DNA of 64,000 bases. Origin: Lyophyllum atratum. Its lineage: Eukaryota > Basidiomycota > Agaricomycetes > Agaricales > Lyophyllaceae. Of this stretch, positions 41,589 through 54,498 are shown piece after piece; position 1 is the stretch's first letter, and every line of letters starts with the position of its first letter. The position numbers and the translations under genes were made by a program. Location: contig JACGCN010000010.1 in NCBI GenBank assembly GCA_014905825.1, positions 1,488,001-1,552,000 of the forward strand. The letters run 5' to 3'. Under the pieces are notes generated by a model. The model was not told the DNA's origin and did no database searches. It saw only the letters and a list, made by a program, of their open reading frames with translations.

Positions 41589-41825
41589 CGGGCAAAGGCG
41601 CTTATCTTCCAGTATTTGTCGTGCACTGGATTCGCATATGGTATAAATGACAACGATGATCATTCAAAATAGGCGCTACAAAGTCGATCCATAGTTGAGC
41701 ACTATTCGCTTATTTGACTTCCCTCGATATGTCACCGCGCATTGACAATGAGTATCAGTCTGGTTGGCGGTGCGCGTGGACACTGACAAGCTTCGATCGT
41801 CACCGTCAGGCTATGTAACCAATAA

Positions 41826-41926
41826 TTCGCGAACCCATCTTCTGATGAGATCAAACAGGGTTCGCGAACGTTCCTCTGATCACAAGGACGACCCTTAGAG
41901 GGAGGGTTCGCGAATAGGTTCGCGAA
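41826..41926 (+). repeat. Left terminal inverted repeat of the KDZ element with four TTCGCGAA octamers
   Basis: Perfect palindromic octamers TTCGCGAA stand at 41826, 41861, 41907 and 41919. The segments between them match the right end in inverted orientation, at least over the first two octamers and their spacer. Confidence 0.88.
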
Positions 41927-41943
41927 CCCTCCTTTCCCCACCT

Positions 41944-42600
41944 CGTTTCGGTTGCTCCCGCCAGCCGCACCGCGCCCTCCACGTGCACCGCCACTGTTTC
42001 GGTTGCTCCCGCCAGCCGCACCGCCCCCCCCACGTGCACCGCCACTTGATAGGCCCCGCTCGTCGTCTGGTACAGCAATCAAAATCGTTCCCTTTTCGGT
42101 CATCGCTTACCACTACCCGAAATCCTCCTCCCCCTCCGGTTCCGCTCCGCTCGTCGTCTGGGACAGCGATCAAATCGTTCCTTTTTCGGTCGTCGCTTAC
42201 CACTACCCGAAATCCTCCTCCTCCTCCGGGTTCCCCTGCGCTCGGGGCGGCTTCCACCCTCGATACAGCACTCCATGCCTCTACACGCCCAGCTACGCAA
42301 TGGGCCCAGGTCGTCGACCGGTACACCTCCGGTTCCGCTCCGCTCGTCGTCTGGGACAGCGATCAAATCGTTCCTTTTTTGGTCGTCGCTTACCCTACCC
42401 GAAACCCTCCTCCTCCTCCGGGTTCCCCTGCGCTCGGGGCGGCTTCCCCCCTCGATACAGCACTCCGCGCCTCTACATGCCCAGCTACGCAATGGGCCCA
42501 GGTCGTCGACCGGTACAGCGAGCAAAACATTCCGTTTTCGGGGACCGCTTACCACCTACCCGGTTTCCTCCTCCTCCTCTGGTCCCTCCGCATTCGGGGC
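41944..42600 (+). repeat. Subterminal tandem repeats in the left arm of the KDZ element
   Basis: Two copies of a roughly 50 bp unit (starting GTTTCGGTTGCTCCCGCCAG, near 41944 and 41996) are followed by three copies of a unit containing CCGCTCGTCGTCTGG and AATCGTTCC (near 42055, 42147 and 42340). The last two lie inside a duplicated block of about 190 bp that also contains GCTACGCAATGGGCCCAGGT (near 42289 and 42484). Long forward and reverse frames over this stretch are by-products of the GC-rich repeats. Confidence 0.8.
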
Positions 42601-43038
42601 GGCCTCCACCCTCAATCGAGCATCCTACGTTGCGATACGACTATGGCATACATATCTAGGTGTGCTATGCCAATTTCTTCGTCGATCCATGGCTTGGATC
42701 CTGCTTTGGCCGGCCTACCGGGTACTACTGCACGCACTTGGTATCCTGTACCCAGCCACTCACTTACATATATATATCTTATAAAGTCTATAATCATGTT
42801 ATTACTGTTCCCTATGTCGTCTCTCCCCTCCATAGTCTATTTTATGTTGCCTAATCCCAATCCGACAGATTTTGCACTTGAGCAATTTTTCTAAGTCGTT
42901 ATCAGCAACCTGATAAGATAAGATGTTCAGGCTGATATTCCTTGTGAGGGGTACCATCAACATTTACGCATCCAATCATATCAAGTACGCCCAAGGCATG
43001 TATATTTCCAAGTATCTACTAACAGATATTATCTACAG
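42601..43038. other. Non-coding left arm of the KDZ element
   Basis: About 440 bp between the tandem repeats and the first cargo gene. No gene recognised; it contains the AT-rich tract CTTACATATATATATCTTAT near 42763. Confidence 0.5.
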
Positions 43039-45312
43039 CTACTTCTTGGGCTTCTTGGACTTACTCCCAGAGGCCGCTGCTTTCTTTCGCTTTGCGGGAA
43101 CGGTGGACTCAGGGTCAGGCACGGCAGCGGCAGCGGATCTATGGGAGTTCGCCCACGGCTGTTCGATGACCTCACCATCAGGATGGCGTACCGGAACGCG
43201 CTCGCGACGCCCGGTTACCTTCTCCTTCTCCTTTCGTACCTCCTCCAACGCCTTGGCCTTCTCCTTGTTGGCCTGTCGTGTCGCCTTGGCCTTCTCAGCG
43301 CGTGTGAGTTCTGGAGGCTTGTCGGTTGGCTGGTTAACCACGAGGGGTTCGGAGATTGTCGCGCCGGCTAATAGATAGTCTTGATCTTGATCAGACACCT
43401 GACCTTTTTTCCCGCGTGCCGGTGCCTTCTTTTTTGATTTGGTATGTTTCACTGCTGCTGGCTTGGGTGGCGGGGGAGGGATAGGGGGAGGAGCAGGGGG
43501 AGGAGGGGGAGGGGGAGGGGGAGGAGGAGGGGGAGGAGGAGGGATCGAAGGTTGGGAAGAGGCCAGGGATTCCGGGATTGCGCTGTCGACTGGTGGGATG
43601 GGGGGAGGAATCAGAGGCTGTGTTCGGAACTGCGGATCAAGGAACCCTTCATCTGCATCATGATCATCATGACGCGCGTCTTCAGCTGGAAGGCCCATGC
43701 GTCGAAATGCATGCTCGATCGGGGAGCTCGGCCCGCCTGGAGCATTTGGGAACATAGTCGGCACAGACGGGGGGGGAGGCAGAGGTACGAACGGTTGAGA
43801 GGGAGGGGGAGGGGGAGGCACAGACGGAGGAGGGGGAGACATGTGTGGAGGAGGCGTCGGGGATGCGCGGGCGACTGGGTGCGTTGGTTGAGGGGGAGGC
43901 AGAGGCAAAGATGGAGGAGGGGGAGGCGTGTGTGGAGGAGGCGTCGGGGACGCGCGGGCGACCAGGTGCGTCGGTTCAGGCCCGAAGTCTTCTTCCTCAT
44001 CGTCATCTGATCTTGATCCATCAGACCCTTTGCTGCCGTCGCTGTCATGGGTTTTGTCGTCGTCCGAGGGTGGCTCTATGCTATCCATTCGGTAGGGCGC
44101 ATCCACCACAACTTGTGAGTCTAACTCTGTATCTACGCGTGGTATACCAACCGTTACATCATAGGCCTTGGATTTGCCCACTGGTTGCATGCCTTTATGG
44201 GGTAAGGCGCGCTCGAGACGAACTTCTGGGGCTTAAGTTACGGTCAGCGCTATGGACTCACACCAAGCTAGAGTAGGGATACATACGGAAGCAATTCGAC
44301 ACATGTTTACCAAAGGGATCTTGTACGTTCTCGTCAAACGCTAAGTACGAGTCTTGAAAGTCATTTCCAACTTCCGAGGTACGCCCATAGTAGAACCTGG
44401 AAAGAGATTAGAAGTTGACAATGGTCTGACAGAGTAATGAGCACATACGACTCCATAAAGATTGTCCCATGCACGTCAGGATTAGGACCACCAGCCGAAA
44501 CAAAAAAGACCCATCCTGTCGCGTCTGCCAGGGGCCGCATCGCAGCGGCGAGCATTGCAGGAAGTGATTTGATTGCCCTGTGTTTTGAAGGATGTCGTGA
44601 GTTCAGTGAGCAGTAATAAATCCTCAACGACGTACTCGTGGTACTGAGACGGTGTTCTCGCAGCGCCAGCCTCTTCATCGTTCTCTATCTTCTTCAGCGT
44701 CTCAACCTCGGCCTGCCTCTGCCCCCTCAGCTCCTCTGCCTTCGCGTCAACCTCGGCGTGTATCTCTGGCGGCTCCTGGTCCAAGAATTTCACGACTACC
44801 TTACGACGGATACCCATCACCGTGTCTTCCTCGGTAGCGGTTTTCATGGCCTCCTCGACGGCGGCCGCTATCTTCTTCTTATCACCAAAATACTTTTGGT
44901 AGACCTCTACACGCTGGAGAGTTCGCTTTCGAGGCTGATTTTTCTTCACCACCTGCATGAGCTGTTTGAAGTCGGATGCCGTTGACCGCGTCTCCTTCCC
45001 TACAGAGCGCATCATCCACGCGCGTAATTGCTGCATCGCAGTCAGTCTCGTATACCGAAATAGGTTAGTCACACGTACATTCCTGCGCTTTTTGACCGCC
45101 TTGTTGACTTTTTGCTTTTGATCTGCATCCAGCTCGCCTTTGTCGATATCGGGGAAGACCCGCCCTTCCTCAGGCCACTCCTGGAACCAGTCCTCGATAA
45201 GAGATGTAAAAAAGCGCGAGACTCGGTCGCGTCGCCTGGACTCGTGATATGCAGGTAGCTTAGACTGCAGCCAGGCAAGTTCTTCATCAGTAGTCCAGCG
45301 TTGACCACCCAT
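43039..45312 (-). CDS. KDZ cargo protein 1: large Pro-rich, Lys-rich probable nuclear protein
   Basis: The start at 45312 gives MGGQRWTTDEELAWLQSKLP. About six exons join in frame to roughly 700 residues. The N-terminal domain is helical and charged (FFTSLIEDWFQEWPEE, then a basic KKRRN segment and MQVVKKNQPRKRTLQRVEVY). A coiled stretch follows, then ASLPAMLAAAMRPLADATGW-like sequence (seen as SLPAMLAAAMRPLADATGWV) and FFVSAGGPNPDVHGTIFMES. The C-terminal half has a Ser/Asp/Glu run, long polyproline tracts, a Glu/Lys-rich coiled coil and a basic nuclear-localisation-type end (KRKKAAASGSKSKKPKK). I do not know its biochemical role. Similar TDEE.AWL..KLP-type proteins are familiar from basidiomycete genomes, so the N-terminal domain is probably a conserved family. 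Its position inside the transposon marks it as cargo or as a factor for transposition. Confidence 0.75.
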
Positions 45313-45582
45313 AGAAGCGACACTGAAGGTGAGGGATTAACCATATCGATCTATTTCTCATATTGACATACTCCTCCTTCCTCTCGGTCCTCCCTCACAT
45401 TCCGATTCCCGAATTTCATAACAATGTCCCATGATGCTCCTCTGACACATGGTAAGGAAGGAGGCACCTGAACGCTCAAGCACGACCACACCTCGGTAAA
45501 CTCCATTCCAATAAGATAAATAGCCACCTCATTTGATCGATGTTAAGTGAAACCCAGATCACCATCTACTCTCTCTTTCGAC

Positions 45583-46561
45583 ATGACCGACGACAAAGGA
45601 AAGCAGGCAGTTGGTGGACGGAGGCCTTGCGCCTCGTGTTCAGGAACTGCTGAAGCCCTCCGCGTCCTCGCCATGGCATTACGGACCGCTCAAGATGGTA
45701 TGTCTGTCAGTGTTGTTCTAGCTACGTCGTTCCTAACCGTTCATGTGCAGCTCTTGTTCATATTCGCGTGCCCATCCCCAACGGTATGTACTTGGATGAA
45801 GTTGGATCTCATACTTGCTACTCACTGCTTACCGTTTATTTTCAGAGGTCGCCCTCGCAATGGGGTATAGCGCTGTCCCGCAAGCAGATCTGCCTCAGCA
45901 ACTTCGAGATATGTGTGCCCGCATGGGCTATCTCGTTCTGGAACGTACGTCTGATCATCACACCTCAAAATAGGTTAATGCTTAAATTCAAATTCTATTT
46001 TTAAACAGAAGATCCAATTCGCGTGCCGGATCTCGCTGATCCGGACTTCCACTCGGATGCGATCTCCGTTGCGAGCAGCACCCTGAGCGATTGGACGCAA
46101 ACACCCACTCCCTCCGAGTTAGGCGGTAAGTAACCCCTATCCCTTCATGTGCACCGCATGTCTAATATACCTACCATCAGACCCCGTCCCCCCGCCTGCA
46201 GTCACCACCACGAGTGCTCAGCCTGAGGCGGAAGGTCCTGCCGATGATCGCTGGTATGCCGTGATTTCTGGCCGAAATCCCGGAGTGCATCGCGGATCGT
46301 ATGTATATCCTCGTCTCATGATTGGATCGCACCCTAATCAAACTCGTTAGGCAAAATCTCGCGGGCAACGCAACAGGTGTCCCAGGTGGGTTTGCCCAAC
46401 GCTATGCGACGCACGCGAAGGCACAGGCAGCGTACGACGAGGCTCTTGCCCTTGGCAAGGTGTACAAGATCACCTTCGATGTGGGAAGGGACCAGCTTCA
46501 CCCTCCCGGCCCTTCCGGTCCTCCTCCACCCCCCCCTGCCGCTGGGGCCGCTGCAGCTTGA
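45583..46561 (+). CDS. KDZ cargo protein 2: RNase H1 N-terminal-like (hybrid-binding) domain protein
   Basis: The start at 45583 gives MTDDKGKQAVGGRRPCASCS. Six or so short exons join in frame: helical RVLAMALRTAQD, HIRVPIPNEVALAMGYSAVP, an acidic EDPIRVPDLADPDF-like segment, and then a C-terminal domain WYAVISGRNPGVHRGSQNLA followed by GNATGVPGGFAQRYATHAKA and QAAYDEAL. That last part has the layout of the caulimovirus P6/RNase H1 N-terminal fold (Y.V..GR.PG...........G..G...R..T...A..A), which binds RNA-DNA hybrids or dsRNA. No RNase H catalytic domain follows; the protein ends in a Pro/Ala tail. It is divergent from cargo gene 1, only 270 bp away, so they may share a promoter region. Function in the transposon is unknown. 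Confidence 0.78.
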
Positions 46562-46685
46562 ATCATATCTCCCTCACTGTGTATGTATGTAGACGTACAT
46601 ACATCTTCGCCGTTTGTAGCCTGCTGTGCACGGCAATAGACGCCGTTCCCTTCATCGCGGTGTTGAATTCTAAGTTGTACTGAAG

Positions 46686-47864
46686 CTAGTATACACATGG
46701 TCCCTCGTGCATACCCATACAGTACCATTCGTGATGGGACTCGTCATCTGACACATAGCCGCCCTGGACTTCGTCGCCGTTGTCGTTGTTCTCGCCCTCG
46801 TCATCGTCCTTGTCATTGTCGTTCCCCTCGTCCTCGTCCTCATCTTCGTCCTCGTCCTCGTCTTCGTCGTTGTCGTCGTCATCGTTCTCGTTCTCGTCCT
46901 CCCCTTCGTCACCACTATCGGTTTCACCACCATCAGTTTCGACAGCGCTGTCTGATTCAGCGTATACCACTGTGCAGAGGCTTGGGAGAATCGAGGTCTT
47001 GAGTTCCAGAATGGTGATGCCTTTGACGAGGATCTCCACCAATTCAATCTGGATCCGCCACAACTCTCGTATTTTCCACATCTCCAGGGGTAAGTCTCCA
47101 TCCATGAAGTGTAGTCGGCTGAGCATGCGGCGTCCTCGCGCCGCGTGATTATGCAGTTGTGCTCGCCAAACTTCCACACGGCGCTCCTCCACTGCCAGGT
47201 TGAACGACTTATCCAGCCCAATGCTCCAGTACGTGACACCTCCCCATCCGTTAGCCCAGTTCAAAACTGCTGTATGTAATTTCAGGAGGACATCAAGCTC
47301 AAGGTATTGCGTCGGGTAAGGCTTCTTTCCATCATAGTCAACCAGGTTGTTGATCATGTTACCCAGTAGTGCTTCCGGGTGAATGGACTTGGTGCGGTGG
47401 AAGTCCGACGGGAGGGAGTGGGGGGGATTATGGGTCTCGATGTCGAGCTCGGCCGCTGCTGTATCCGTGGTGTGCGGCCCGTCTTCGACAGCGATATCTT
47501 GTGTCAAGAGTTCATAAGTGGAAGAGTCGGTGGAGGACTCTTCAGACGAGTCGGGAAGGGGGGACATAAGCTCAGATACTGGGACGGGTTCTGTGGGGGG
47601 AGGGAGCATGGTCGATTCAGAAATCTGTACGCTAGGTTCGGTACTGGCAATTGTGGATGGTGCAGCATCCTTCTGTGATTTTAGCTCACGACGACGACGC
47701 TGTCGCTCCCGATTCTTTTCTTTCACCTCTGGATGCCTACGAATATCGAGTTAATTAAATGAATAATAACGAGAATACGGTACATACTTTTGATAATAGC
47801 GCTGATACTTGGTCAAGCCGTCTTTTCCTTTCTTCAGTGTCGCCTTGGTGTTACTCGTAGTCAT
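46686..47864 (-). CDS. KDZ cargo protein 3: basic N-terminus, acidic C-terminus, unknown function
   Basis: Two exons: MTTSNTKATLKKGKDGLTKY then QRYYQK from 47864, spliced to HPEVKEKNRERQRRRRELKS and a long frame ending at 46686. The N-terminal YYQKHPEVKEKNRERQRRRR motif looks like a short basic DNA- or RNA-binding helix. A Ser/Thr/Pro-rich acidic linker follows, then a helical core (HPEALLGNMINNLVDYDGKK, LNWANGWGGVTYWS, LEMWKIRELWRIQIELVEIL). An almost uninterrupted Asp/Glu/Asn tract then leads to GGYVSDDESHHEWYCMGMHE. The acidic tail is reminiscent of histone chaperones, but I see no recognised chaperone fold. It is convergent with cargo gene 2 (about 120 bp apart) and divergent from the TET/JBP gene. 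Confidence 0.72.
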
Positions 47865-48262
47865 ATTTGGACTTTGAATTTCCCACTTCTAAGTTTACCG
47901 ATGTGCAACCGGCGTGTGAAAAGGTGGTGAAAGGTGGTGTTCGAATGTTTCCGACTTAAATGTACGCAACACTACCAGTATGTACTATTCTTGCGGTTGT
48001 GTACCGTGATTTCCAACCAATCTAAGGAGCATTTCCTTGTACGCCACGCCCACATGCTAAGTTGGAAACGCGGGAAGGTCAGCAACCACACGCATCAGCA
48101 ACCTTAATTTTCTAATTTGCCGAGACATCAATCTCGATTTCGATGATCTCACCCATATGGTTGCACACACACGGTGAGCAACCTCGTTCTTTAAATTTGA
48201 TTCTTTAGTCTCCCACCTTTTTTCTGTCTCCCACCTTTTCCTCCCACCTTTCCTGACAAAAA

Positions 48263-49834
48263 ATGTCTCGCCTCCACTTCGAAGCCGCTCCAGGCTGTAC
48301 CAACTCTGGGTTGCGGTTTCAGGACCATCGAGGCCTACGTACGTCATTGTTTATCTCGGACCGACTTGCCACGCTGATCATCAATTTCCGAAAACAGATC
48401 ATCCGAACCTTGGACCCTTTCTTTCACCGCCCACCGTCGAGCCGCTCGGCACCATCCAAACCTCCTTCAACCTCGATGATCTCCCCCAGCGCACCAGCGG
48501 CTGGACCGTGCCCGATGTCCCAACAAACTCCGAAGTAGTACCGACACTACAGGACCTCAGGAAGGAGGGTGGTTACCGGCTTTTCAAGTGGGATGGCATG
48601 TGCGTTCTTTACTTACTTAGAAACATTTTTGATTAGGCTAATGATCATAAAGTACCCCCTATGCTCTTTTAGACACAGATGCACGCATCTTCGGGCTCCT
48701 AGCAGGCGTGCCAGCCGTTCCCGCACCCCAACACCCATCCAACAACTTCTCCCACGATTTCGACAGTCGTATGGACACGCTAGACACGTCCGACATGCCC
48801 GGCCTCGTCTCGGACGACAGCGACGACGGGGATGGGGACGATAGCGAATCGGCGACTAGCGAATCGGCGACTAGCGAGTCGCGACCATGGTCCGACGTCG
48901 TGACGGGCTTCGAACATGCCCTGAAGGCTGTGCGTCTCATCGGCCAGGCCTCGGGTACATTCTCACCTGTTGCTGGGTCACATCGTCGTGGTAATTATTT
49001 TACCTTGACCTCTGGGATATCCTTTGGCGGCGGCCAGACGGTACGTTCTGAGTTCAACGTCGTTCTTTAACTTTATCTAACTGACTTTTCGAAACCCTTC
49101 CAGGAGCCACAAAACCTTGTCCACACACGCGAGGAGCAACAGCTCATCGATAGCCTCCTCCTCAACGACCATGTTGAACGCGTAGCGGCTTTCCAGTCCC
49201 GTATGTGAACTATGTAATTATCTACTATGAATACATATCAAATGGTTTTGGTTTTACTACAGAAGCTCTCGGATATATCGCCCCACGCATATACGAAGAC
49301 ATCGCGGTCCACCTAGCCGTGCTCATGTTTGCAGGCAAGAAGAGAGATCAGTTCCAAGCGAACTTCTCCTCCTCGGTTTACCCGGCTGGAACGTTCAACC
49401 TCGGTCCGGAGACCGTCACGGTACTCCACAACGACGGCAAGAACTCCAGGTACAATCTGTGCGCTGTGACCGTTGGGGGGCATTTCGATTCGAAACGCGG
49501 TGGTCATTTGATTCTATACGACTTGAAATTGATCATCGAGTTTCCGCGTGGTTCCACGATCCTCATACCTTCCGCCCTCCTTCGCCACGGCAACACCGCC
49601 ATCCAGCCTGGTGAGGAGCGCGTATCTTTCACTCAGTACTGTGCAGGAGGTCTACTTCGTTGGGTGAGCCACGGTTGTGTCACTGATGCGTCCATCAAGG
49701 AGTCGCATCCTCACACTTGGCAGGCGAGGATGAAGGCGATGAATGTGAGTCGAGGTCAGGGGTTCAATTTTTTTTCCAAGTTCCACGAGCTAGCGAGGGA
49801 CCGGAAGGCAGTGTTCCGGAACTTGGGGCTGTAA
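48263..49834 (+). CDS. TET/JBP-family 2-oxoglutarate/Fe(II) dioxygenase (predicted 5-methylcytosine oxidase)
   Basis: Predicted to oxidise 5-methylcytosine in DNA. The start at 48263 gives MSRLHFEAAPGCTNSGLRFQ. Later exons carry GGYRLFKWDG, then RIFGLLAGVPA, an acidic Ser/Asp segment, GISFGGGQT and EPQNLVHTREEQQLID, and a catalytic exon from about 49261. The double-stranded beta-helix is clear: TFNLGPETVTVLHNDGKN (Fe ligands H.D), LCAVTVGGHFDSKRGGHLIL, IIEFPRGSTILIPSALLRHG (distal Fe-ligand His) and GEERVSFTQYCAGGLLRWV (2OG-binding Arg). These match fungal TET/JBP proteins and all catalytic residues are present. The join near 48569-48672 is uncertain: the usual GT donor there puts the next exon out of frame, so a GC donor, an earlier donor or a one-base frameshift must apply. 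The gene lies head-to-tail before the transposase. Confidence 0.88.
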
Positions 49835-49837
49835 TTA

Positions 49838-50127
49838 CATATGCTTATCGTACTTCTATTTTTAAAATCTGATCAGATTATTTGATTTCCACCAGCGGTG
49901 CATGTGGATGCGCCACTTTTGAGTCGTTCGTTCGGGCGGTATTTGTCTGATGTTCATGTGAGTTGTCCGATGCCAACGAATGCATATGCTTATCGTACTT
50001 CTATTTTTAAAATCTGATCAGATTATTTGATTTGCACCAGCGGTGCATATGGATGCGCCACTTCTGAATCGTTTGTTCGGGCAGTATTTGTCTGATGTTC
50101 ATGTGAGTTGTCCGATGCCGTCGAATT
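49838..50127 (+). repeat. Tandem duplication, about 145 bp period, at the 5' end of the KDZ transposase gene
   Basis: The segment beginning ATGCTTATCGTACTTCTATT at 49841 is repeated at 49986. Both copies contain TTTTTAAAATCTGATCAGATT and reach GTTCATGTGAGTTGTCCGATG. Copy 2 carries the putative start codon (CATATGGATGCGCC, ATG at 50049) where copy 1 has CATGTGGATGCGCC. Copy 1 is therefore a duplicated promoter plus first codons lacking the start. Confidence 0.88.
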
Positions 50128-53100
50128 TGAACGTACCTGATGCACAATCCACATGGACAGTGTCCGATGCCGTCGAACCGGGACCTCGATTCCACATTGA
50201 CGCAGCAGTGCCCTTTCCTTCTCCCTTAGCGTCGATGTCAACACACCACCCAAGAAAGAAGGCTCGTCGTCGTGGGGGGATGTTTGCTGTGCCCTCTGAT
50301 GAAACCCAAACCCCTTCCCAATCTACCATCATCTCAACCCGCTATCGCCTCCCCCCACAAGCCAACGCGTACAGTACCTCTACCACCGTCTTCAACGTTC
50401 CCACTCCGCATCAAGCACTTTCTACCGTAGTGCCTCCGGCGGACGACCCTGCCCTTTGGAACGACCAATCTGCAGAACATTTCTCATCTCTGGATGCCGA
50501 CGCTACCCTCGATCCTACCCTCGATCCCGCCTATGTCGCTGAAGTGGAGGCTGAGAGAGTCACTGCGAAGCGTGCAAGAGTTCGTGTTAGTACATTCCAA
50601 TTTTTCACACTCGTCACCGTCTCACTCGACCTTTGCCAGATAAACCAGTTGAAAAAATGGCTACCGGATCGGGACCTTTACCTTGCGGAATTTCTGCGTC
50701 TTGAAGGGCGTGGAGACCACCCTGATATCTGCCCTGGCCATACAGAAACCTCCGAGCTTCACCACGCATCATATCGATGTGTCGATTGCGCTGGCGGCCA
50801 CCTGTTATGCCAGGTGTGTATGGTGTCTACGCATCGGCACAACCCCCTCCATGAAATCGAGGTTCGTTCTCTTCGTTGTCATTTTTTACCTAGTCCCTGA
50901 ATATTTTCCTCGACAGCGTTGGACAGGCACTTACTTCGAAAAAGCTAGTCTGAAGTCTATCGGCCTCCGAGTCCTTCTAGGTCACCCTCTCGATGATTCT
51001 TGCCCCATCCCTTACCCGGTCAACGACTTCGTCGTCGTCCACACCAATGGAATTCACGAAGTTGCGGTCGACTTTTGCGGCTGCCAACAGGCGAAACCCC
51101 ACATCGTTCAACTTCTTCGATATCACTGGTTCCCCGCCTCCATTGATCGACCCTGCACGGCAGCCACTCTGGCTGTGCTTCGACATTTTCAGCTTCTCAG
51201 CTTCGAATCGAAGGCTTCCGCATTTGAATTTTATAACTCTCTCAAGCGTCTCACTGAGAATACAGGGGTGTCACCACCAAAGGTAAGATTCCGTGCTATA
51301 ACATATTTCCTATGCTGACGAACACCTCCAGGATCGGTATCGTTTGTTCATGACCATGGTGCGCGAGTACCGGCATCTGAAGATGCTCAAGCGTGCGGGG
51401 CGTGGCCATGATCCAGCTGGCACCGTGGCTACAAAACCAGGGGAGTGTGCCGTTCTTTGCCCCGCATGCCCGCAGCCTGGGATCAATTTGAAAGAGGGCT
51501 GGAAGAATGCTAGTCCCGAGGATCGGTGAGTGCTTCGTCTTCTCAGAATTAACCCTTTCTAATAGTTTTTATCATGTTAGATTTTTATACCGTCTCTTCC
51601 TCGCCATCGACGCGAACTTTCGCCTGAAAAGGAAAAAAGTGTCATCCTATGAAGCCGATCCGGGCTTAAGCAAGGGATGGGCATACTTTCTACCGGAAGT
51701 GGAGTACAAATCGTTTCTCAAAGCGTTTGATAAGCTTATAGTGCAAGAGGTAAATCATTCTTATTGTCAATCTCTATAAAATTCTGACTTTGCTATCAGC
51801 GTAGTACCTGTTCCAACCACAAGGCCGTCGACGCGGAACGTGCGACTAAGGGGCTTGCGGCAACGGGTGTAGCTGCGGTTGACTGTGCAAGGCACGATGT
51901 GAAGCGCCCACTCGCAGTCGCAGATCTCATTGGAGGAGAACGGTGCGTACTTCACGATTGTCATAATCAGTATTTCTGACGAGAAATTTCCAGATATGTT
52001 ACGATGGATTCTGTTTTTTTGGGTCGCTCAAGGACATCGACCTCTTGGAGATTGTTGTTTCCTACGATATCGTGTGCCAGTGGAGTAAGCATGTCTGGGA
52101 TCGGATGGCCAAGTACCCGCACAAGATGCACATCAATGCCGACGATACTACACATTTCTACTTCTACATTCCCAAGTTTCACCTCCCCGCCCACATCATG
52201 GCATGCCAGACCATCTACTCCTTCAACTTTAACCCCTCTGTTGGACGCACGGATGGCGAAGGTGTTGAGCGCGGCTGGTCCCACATCAATCCGGTTGCAA
52301 CAAGCACACGAGAAATGGGACCCGGAAGTCGTCGAGATACTCTCGACGACCACTTCGGCGACTGGAATTGGAAGAAGACATCATTCATGGGTAAGCTATT
52401 CATTCTTCTTTTTGAGGGCATATATCTAACGTAATCTATACTCAGGCGCATCTTTACTACGAAAGATAGAAGAGGCTGTAGTAGAAGGTAATGATCACCG
52501 ACAACTTCACGATGAATTCAACGCCGGGCTCGACCCCGAAATTACTGGCCGCTGGCGAGCCGAGTTGTCGACGTGGGAAGTGAGGGAAAGCAATGAGAAG
52601 GGACCGAATCCTTTCGAGCGGAAGTTTCAAGGTATGTTGCCAGTCATTGTCCCACCTTACTGCTACTAACCCTTGGCAAGTCATTTCTCAGGATGCTGTT
52701 CGGAAAAAGCTCGCTCTTCAGGAGAGCGAGGATACCAAGGCCGGTCGGGCTTATGCGCTTCATGAAGAGATCTCGGCATCGCAGCTCATAACCATGGGCC
52801 TTGACTTTGAGGAAAAACAGTATGTATTCGACTATAATCTGTGTTATTATCGCTCAGTGAGTACTCTAGACGCTGCCTTGCTGTGGATCGAGCTGCTTTG
52901 GGCCAGCATGCGACGGACAAGCAAAAGTCTAAGCTTCAGACGCAGTCCAACATTCTGCGTCGGAAGATTGATGCATGGATTGCGGTCCAGCATCTGTACA
53001 TGCCTGCACTTGCTACCATACGCACGCGTGACGCTGAAGCAGACGATCACGATAGTGACCCCACGGAGGACGTATCACTATACCTCCCGTCCGCCCTTGC

Positions 53101-54003
53101 TCACTCCTCCTCACATCCACGCGCCCTCCCATCATCTCGCTTACAGGCCCCTGTCGTCCCTTGCGACATTCGTCTCCGTGAGATGGAATGGGAACTTCGG
53201 AATGCCCAGGCCAGTGATGCACTTGCGGAGCTTCGTGACGGCCTTCGTCTCCGCTCCTACCTCTACATCGACAAGGACCGTTTCCAACGTGGTCAGCGCC
53301 ATAATACTCGTTCCAGAGGCATCATCGACCGTACTGAGGTCAAGATCGCCGCCGCCGCTTCGAAGTACCGTGCAGCTCGTCTAGCAATCGAGGGTCTTGC
53401 ACCAGCGTTGGATAAGGTTGGCTGGGAGGATGCTTATCCTCTGCTAGCCCGTGAGGATATCAGGGCGATGGGCGAGGCGGATCCGAGTGTCCGTGTGCGA
53501 CCCGGGCCAGCACAGGGTCGTCACAGGGGGTCCTGGATATGGACACGGCTGGGAGATCTGGAATACAAGGACGACGACCTCCTCCAGGACGGTGCGTTCC
53601 TCATCATCTTCTGTAGATATTTTTCTCACAGAGCATATATCTGACAGACCTCCGCATTGAGTGGTGTAAGGGCAAAGCTCGTGCGGACCGATGGCAAGAG
53701 GAGGTTCGATTACTCCTGGAGGAAATGGAGAGGGTTGACCGCTTCTTTAACCATAAGGCGGTGGAATGGGAAAGCCGTACGCTAGTGGTCTGTTCTGCGG
53801 GCAGGTACGATGATCGGGCAACAGCAGAAGGGAGGAGGGCCTACGCATACCAGCAGGCTGCCACGTATTCTGCTATGCGGCGCCGCGCTGCTCACTTATG
53901 GCACCATGTACCCACATTCGTCGCACAGGGGCATGGCTTGCTGGTACCGGAAGACGTCCAGACCGCCGAGAAGGGCGACGACGATGCGGAGGAAGAACAG
54001 TGA
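50049..54003 (+). CDS. KDZ (Kyakuja-Dileera-Zisupton) transposase, CxC2 type, with an apparent frameshift
   Basis: Cut-and-paste transposase of the element. The start at 50049 gives MDAPLLNRLFGQYLSDVHVS. A disordered N-terminus with a basic patch (PRKKARRRGG) is followed by the CxC2 cysteine cluster (YRCVDCAGGHLLCQVCM). The RNase H-like core comes next: IDANFRLKRKK (first catalytic Asp region), GWAYFLPEVEYK, STCSNHKAVDAE, GVAAVDCARH, VSYDIVCQWSKHVWDRM (second Asp region), KFHLPAH and GRTDGEGVERGWS (Glu region), then a long helical C-terminus with the DLGDLEYKDDDL-like segment and an acidic end at 54003. Around ten short introns interrupt it. Between GER/YVTMDSVF and SLKDIDLLEIVVSYD the frame changes at a run of seven T (52014-52020). 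One more T would keep frame. Unless this is a sequencing or assembly slip, this copy is inactive. Confidence 0.88.
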
Positions 54004-54088
54004 TTTTTATACTGTACTAGGTAATAATACATAATATACACTATTTTGCTCGTCCTAGTGGGTTCCGTAATATGCCTGCTACGGTCAA

Positions 54089-54180
54089 GGCGGGTGCGGG
54101 ATCGGGGTGCACATTTGCCGACCTGGAGGGCGGGAATCGGGGTGCGCATTTGCCGACCTGAAGGGCGGGAATCGGGATCC
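54089..54180 (+). repeat. Short tandem repeats in the right arm of the KDZ element
   Basis: About 2.5 copies of a roughly 37 bp unit containing GGGGTGC.CATTTGCCGACCTG, each followed by GGGCGGGAATCGGG, lie between the transposase stop and the right inverted repeat. Confidence 0.75.
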
Positions 54181-54364
54181 GAATACACGGAACGGAAGGG
54201 CGGGGTGAGTTGTACCTAAATGGAGGTCGTCCCAATGAGGAAGTGGGGGCGCGACTGCTCTGAACGATGAGCTCGAGTATTAGGGACGAGCATATCCATA
54301 TTGAGCGATATAGGCGGGAATGGGTGTGCGGAAGGACGTAGGGTGCTTCTAAGCTAGAGCAATA

Positions 54365-54472
54365 TTCGCGAATACCGCCTTCTGATTAGAGGCAATATTC
54401 GCGAAGTCATCCTCTAGATTAGAGGCAGGTTCGCGAACCCTATCTGATGTCATCAGAGCGTGGGTTCGCGAA
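54365..54472 (-). repeat. Right terminal inverted repeat of the KDZ element with four TTCGCGAA octamers
   Basis: TTCGCGAA occurs at 54365, 54398, 54430 and 54465. The reverse complement from 54472 aligns with the left end from 41826. A CCTCTAAT-like element sits between octamers on both sides. Confidence 0.88.
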
Positions 54473-54498
54473 GTCACGCCAGCATCAGGTGTCACCGT

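Follow-up and report, generated by a model that had tools for sequence, protein, structure and literature searches.

The window examined here is a stretch of 64,000 nucleotides (64 kb) from the agaricomycete Lyophyllum atratum (contig JACGCN010000010.1, positions 1,488,001 to 1,552,000), and coordinates given without a prefix refer to it. It holds a complete KDZ transposon with CAGG..GGTG ends at 41807..54491, which carries five genes, here called A to E, among them a KDZ transposase (E) and a predicted TET-fold dioxygenase (D). The borders were obtained from other copies and an empty site: the matches to other copies all stop at bases 41807 and 54491, which therefore delimit the element. A first-pass annotation, made from the letters alone, had placed it at 41807..54490 with matching inverted ends; the left border and the inverted arms hold, whereas the element is one base longer on the right. 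The target site duplication (TSD) was found to be TCACCGT on both sides (41800..41806 and 54492..54498), thus 7 bp and not 8 bp as proposed before. CAGGC begins all 12 left ends seen, CAGGTG closes all 12 right ends seen, and a 7-bp TSD flanks 9 of the 11 copies having both ends, the exceptions being copies C97 and C111. Copies C67, with a truncated left end, and C119, a left end only, were left out of this scoring. The joined flanks find a 90% match at C119:1520556-1520915, an empty site that holds a single copy of the TSD.

The outermost 19 bp of the element ends show no inverted repeat. Inside them begin two subterminal inverted arms of 67 nt each (41826..41892 and 54406..54472), which are 81% complementary to one another. 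Either end also bears an array of four TTCGCGAA palindromes, on the left at 41826..41926 (starts 41826, 41861, 41907 and 41919) and on the right at 54365..54472 (starts 54365, 54398, 54430 and 54465), corresponding to distances of 20, 55, 101 and 113 bases from the left end and 20, 55, 87 and 120 bases from the right end. Of nine occurrences of TTCGCGAA in the window eight lie at these ends, four per side, and none in the interior of the element. Two CpGs are present in every site. All eight sites are kept by four full-size copies and six or seven of them by seven short copies. The arrays are putative binding sites of the transposase.

The genes were modelled with GT-AG introns, and the protein of E was taken from copy C67. 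Their order and strands, A(−) B(+) C(−) D(+) E(+), are those given in the first-pass annotation (reverse, forward, reverse, forward, forward). Gene A (43039..45312, minus strand) comprises 5 exons and 686 amino acids (aa), the C-terminal half being proline-rich and basic; gene B (45583..46561, plus) has 6 exons and 230 aa; gene C (46686..47864, minus) has 2 exons and 375 aa with a basic N-terminus, a conserved helical core and an acidic tail; gene D (48263..49834, plus) has 5 exons and 444 aa; and gene E (50235..54003, plus) has 11 exons and 1075 aa in C67. The reading frames of A to D are open in the window copy. The interval separating D from E holds a 144-nt direct repeat (49838..50126), the two copies of which are 94% identical and 145 nt apart. 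In the open copy C67, E matches the KDZ domain PF18758 over its full length (1-217) with 203.4 bits against a cut-off of 26.6, and it also matches the CxC2 cluster in Pfam. B matches Cauli_VI (PF01693), the N-terminal, hybrid-binding domain of RNase H1, with 17.4 bits, which is below the 21-bit cut-off, and two relatives of B reach 19.8 and 19.9 bits. Domain searches revealed no DNA-binding or nuclease domain in A or C, and a Pfam search of the proteins of the element revealed no glycosyltransferase or other hypermodifying gene.

The assignment of D as a 2-oxoglutarate/Fe(II) dioxygenase of the TET type relies on its relatives. Tet_JBP (PF12851) is matched by 12 of 26 D relatives at E ≤ 0.01 (best 5.9e-8), and the predicted structure of relative P0004, with a predicted local distance difference test score (pLDDT) of 95.4, finds its best structural matches in CcTET, NgTET1 and TET2. 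From this model D has the TET/JBP fold, and together with the PF18758 match of E the identities given to both enzymes in the first-pass annotation are supported. Among 49 relatives hand-picked from 120 listed, the HxD..H iron ligands and the 2-oxoglutarate Arg are present in 49, 47, 48 and 48 sequences, respectively, and window D has all of them. The register between D and CcTET was set by the spacing to the iron His and by hhalign to CcTET-like proteins of the same genome. At the positions of CcTET 331 and 337, Asn and Cys stand in 49/49 relatives, which rules out an AG-type TET/JBP (Gly/Ser at 331, Asp at 337). A PE-type enzyme (HxE) is ruled out by the HxD motif, in which Asp occurs in 47/49 relatives and Asn and Ser in the other two. 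The Asn of D aligns with Asn1387 of human TET2. Since D has this Asn and does not have the Gly331/Asp337 pair that makes CcTET of Coprinopsis cinerea bifunctional for 5-methylcytosine (5mC) and N6-methyladenine (6mA) (PMC11040006), it should, judged by these residues, be a candidate conventional 5mC oxygenase rather than a bifunctional one. D and CcTET share about 16% identity.

To search for further copies the 64.8-Mb L. atratum assembly was used. The left end gave 24 matches, from which three full-size copies, seven short ones, one 9.5-kb copy (C71) and the left-end fragment C119 were taken. Other copies with the same five genes between the same ends had been named in the first-pass annotation as support for its proposal, and such are the full-size copies C67, C141 and C97, whose identity with the window copy is 99.3-99.8% in the aligned parts. 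The three copies compared (window, C67 and C141) all have open frames for A, B and D, and E is open in C67 despite short in-frame losses. In C97, the genes of which were compared as nucleotides, the exons of E align gap-free except where E of the window copy is broken. A partial tandem duplication has given C97 a second, truncated D as well as portions of B and C; the annotated protein P0001 (L025-L027) is the product of it, a truncated D fused to the end of B. The short copies (C77, C111, C89, C24, C130, C2:1007737 and C65) measure 1.6-1.8 kb and have only the ends in common with the full element. Copy C71 (L028-L029), which retains four TTCGCGAA at its ends, looks like a short derivative split by a nested insertion of about 7.8 kb with inverted ends of its own and a D-type gene. 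In view of the defined ends, the 7-bp TSD, the empty site, the near-identical copies and the short derivatives sharing the ends, this is a complete and recently mobile element.

The companion genes A, B and C accompany KDZ genes throughout this genome. Genome searches, reduced by hand, gave 14 loci for A, 10 for B, 16 for C and 59 for D, besides 65 merged ones for KDZ. The stretch reaching 15 kb upstream from a KDZ locus includes A in 14/14, B in 10/10 and C in 14/16 cases, A and C always antisense and B always sense to KDZ, while about 3.1% of the genome lies as near to KDZ loci; the B and C loci on C61, 13-14 kb from KDZ, are counted only by the choice of cut-off. The loci are not independent, as they include four near-identical copies, and B and C of the C97 duplication enter the counts a second time, so that the p values for this proximity make it look more significant than it is. 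The two C loci with no nearby KDZ match are on C119 and C57. At the former (C119:10340-15927) a C homologue 84% identical to window C stands near a D-type gene only 44% identical to its counterpart, and KDZ is not matched closer than 15 kb; this may be a mosaic or a damaged element. D is near a KDZ locus in 28 of 59 cases, in 19 of them upstream and sense.

Diverged relatives show the same arrangement. All three that were taken (C13a, C117 and C13b) have A-B-C-D-E in the order and orientation of the window. C13a, at C13:861523-878141, is complete, having ends that match and a TSD of 7 bp; the ends of the C117 and C13b elements were looked for and not found. Over the aligned codons of all 15 comparisons the amino-acid identity is 0.35-0.74, the proportion of silent differences (pS) 0.68-0.81 and that of amino-acid-changing differences (pN) 0.17-0.47, the latter being biased low because only alignable parts were scored; the silent divergence corrected for multiple changes (dS) is saturated or infinite in many of these comparisons. 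Diverged families have thus retained the five genes as a group, silent changes being far more frequent than amino-acid ones, and within this genome the set constitutes a conserved module. Of these relatives C13a is the nearest for each of the five window genes, which suggests that they descended jointly. The compact mobile module proposed in the first-pass annotation is borne out in so far as A, B and C, by KDZ proximity and by gene order in the relatives, are supported as conserved parts of the element in this genome.

Window C and D were also compared with proteins of Crassisporium funariophilum (P0121, P0122 and P0002). Window C is 84% identical to P0122 over 232 aa and 43-49% to the other L. 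atratum families; window D is 69% identical to P0002 and 47% to P0004 of L. atratum. This closeness could reflect horizontal transfer or slow change.

According to literature, TET-carrying Kyakuja transposons with 7-bp TSDs and CA..TG ends occur in five agaricomycete orders (Kojima 2025, PMC12730594), and the linkage of TET/JBP and KDZ genes in basidiomycetes, which the first-pass annotation had taken as known, is accordingly published. The function of TET in Kyakuja is called not validated there. Kyakuja-1_LB and Kyakuja-2_LB share with the window element a KDZ transposase, a 7-bp TSD, CA..TG ends, an internal TET/JBP-fold gene and an agaricomycete host. By its ends and TSD the window element is placed as Kyakuja-like. 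The enzymes of both published elements are, however, of the AG type (Gly/Ser and Asp where window D has Asn and Cys), and these two Laccaria families are said to have no terminal inverted repeats (TIRs), whereas the window element has subterminal ones. It further contains three conserved genes more, while the main text on Kyakuja describes no other genes (PMC12730594). Similarly, KDZ1-KDZ3 of Cryptococcus are KDZ DNA transposons, 9-11 kb in length, that moved in the laboratory; unlike the window element they have CxC1 transposases, TIRs of 139-241 bp and TSDs of 4-8 bp, and the accessible account does not mention a TET gene (PMC12810828). KDZ elements of Marasmius oreades were classed by transposase homology (PMC8290104). 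Transposon-borne genes acting on the element's own epigenetic state are represented by the anti-silencing proteins of plant Vandal/MuDR and by SET-carrying HarbingerS (cited in PMC12730594); this is a functional analogy only, since their proteins and superfamilies are unrelated to those of the window element. In L. atratum itself, AG-type CcTET-like genes occur antisense to weak KDZ matches and about 10-14 kb upstream from them, at C46:630085, C130:257188 and C63:138365 (L048-L050); no A, B or C match adjoins them, and TET and KDZ seem to be linked here in another way. TET-carrying Kyakuja being already published, the apparent novelty of the window element lies in its conserved set of five genes and in a TET branch that has Asn/Cys at the places of CcTET Gly331/Asp337.

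We consider it probable that the window holds a copy of a Kyakuja-like KDZ transposon of the cut-and-paste kind, recently mobile and with five genes, in which D is proposed to lift 5mC silencing and A, B and C are accessory. E, perhaps together with A, B or C, would bind the TTCGCGAA arrays and cut with a 7-bp stagger. Host methylation of CpGs in the arrays and in the two divergent promoters (A/B and C/D) would silence the element, and D might oxidise 5mC at these sites, whereby expression or binding would be restored. A, B and C would serve as accessory factors, of which B may bind RNA-DNA hybrids. Seven DNA methyltransferase matches are present in the genome. Among three full-size copies, transitions affect 22 of 1769 CpG bases versus 6 of 4926 other C/G bases (Fisher p 1e-8), which would fit copies that are methylated and deaminating. 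A D-driven demethylation of the element is plausible.

Several observations weigh against this explanation. The CpG bias is compatible with demethylation of the element but not specific to it: a weaker bias is also seen in the flank compared with the empty-site locus (90/470 versus 240/2335 columns, about 1.9-fold) and in four of five pairs of end-sharing copies (the fifth pair is identical), and the observed/expected CpG ratio is 1.00 in the element versus 0.96 in 20 kb of flank. As assembled, all four full-size copies examined carry lesions. E is broken in the window copy, near 52.0 kb and inside the KDZ core, and in C141. In C67 the frame of C is interrupted close to its end, E has short in-frame losses and the left end of the element is truncated; in C97 the length of A is altered by a number of bases not divisible by three, besides the partial tandem duplication. 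Across the five genes together, each pair of near-identical copies is separated by 10-15 silent and 9-13 amino-acid changes, numbers too small for selection to be recognised. Window D itself has no sequence match in Pfam, Tet_JBP (PF12851) included, or in the PDB, and no KDZ locus lies closer than 15 kb to 31 of the 59 D-type loci. Neither A nor C matches a Pfam family above cut-off, and no domain indicates their role.

Nearly even chances are given to A, B and C being transposition factors, concerned with end binding, target choice or complex assembly, with D as the sole epigenetic component. They stay with KDZ loci, and A does so even at five loci that showed neither D nor C in the vicinity (C119:378642-384694, C119:1571424-1576731, C46:504155-509867, C141:717828-724490 and C1:3186124-3192177), although D may be too diverged for detection there and the missing DNA-binding and nuclease domains of A and C do not favour such a role. 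This explanation is compatible with much of the proposed anti-silencing one. A chance capture of A, B and C from the host by one transposon copy would agree with none of them belonging to a family above cut-off tied to transposition; it is highly improbable and already contradicted within this genome by the three further full-size copies carrying them, by the KDZ proximity given above and by the order shared with three diverged relatives. The first-pass annotation had described the mark of such a capture as companions at random single-copy loci and absent from end-matched copies, and this is not what the genome contains.

With regard to D, it seems unlikely that the enzyme does not lift silencing and instead writes a lasting oxidised base (5-hydroxymethylcytosine or another) on ends and promoters as a signal to transposase or host. 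Oxidised methylcytosines do accumulate in or near transposons of Coprinopsis and Laccaria (reviewed in PMC12730594; also PMC8889193), and with D being neither AG- nor PE-type its type does not fix its product; the Asn at the TET2 Asn1387 position, however, fits ordinary 5mC oxidation, and a hypermodifying gene is missing from the element. Returning to the lifting of silencing by D, an extended form of it is rather doubtful at present: a long-conserved five-gene transposition and anti-silencing machine, with D as a further, TET2-like type of transposon TET that together with A, B and C demethylates the TTCGCGAA arrays, end methylation being the switch of transposition.

With these findings three orphan mushroom genes become conserved parts of a defined mobile element. 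As the same five genes recur in the same order in distant relatives within the genome, the extra genes look like working parts and not passengers. The D branch should, by its pocket, differ in substrate range from CcTET, the sole fungal TET whose structure has been solved. Should transposition indeed be gated by methylation of the end arrays, the element would allow the way in which a eukaryotic transposon counters DNA methylation to be tested directly.
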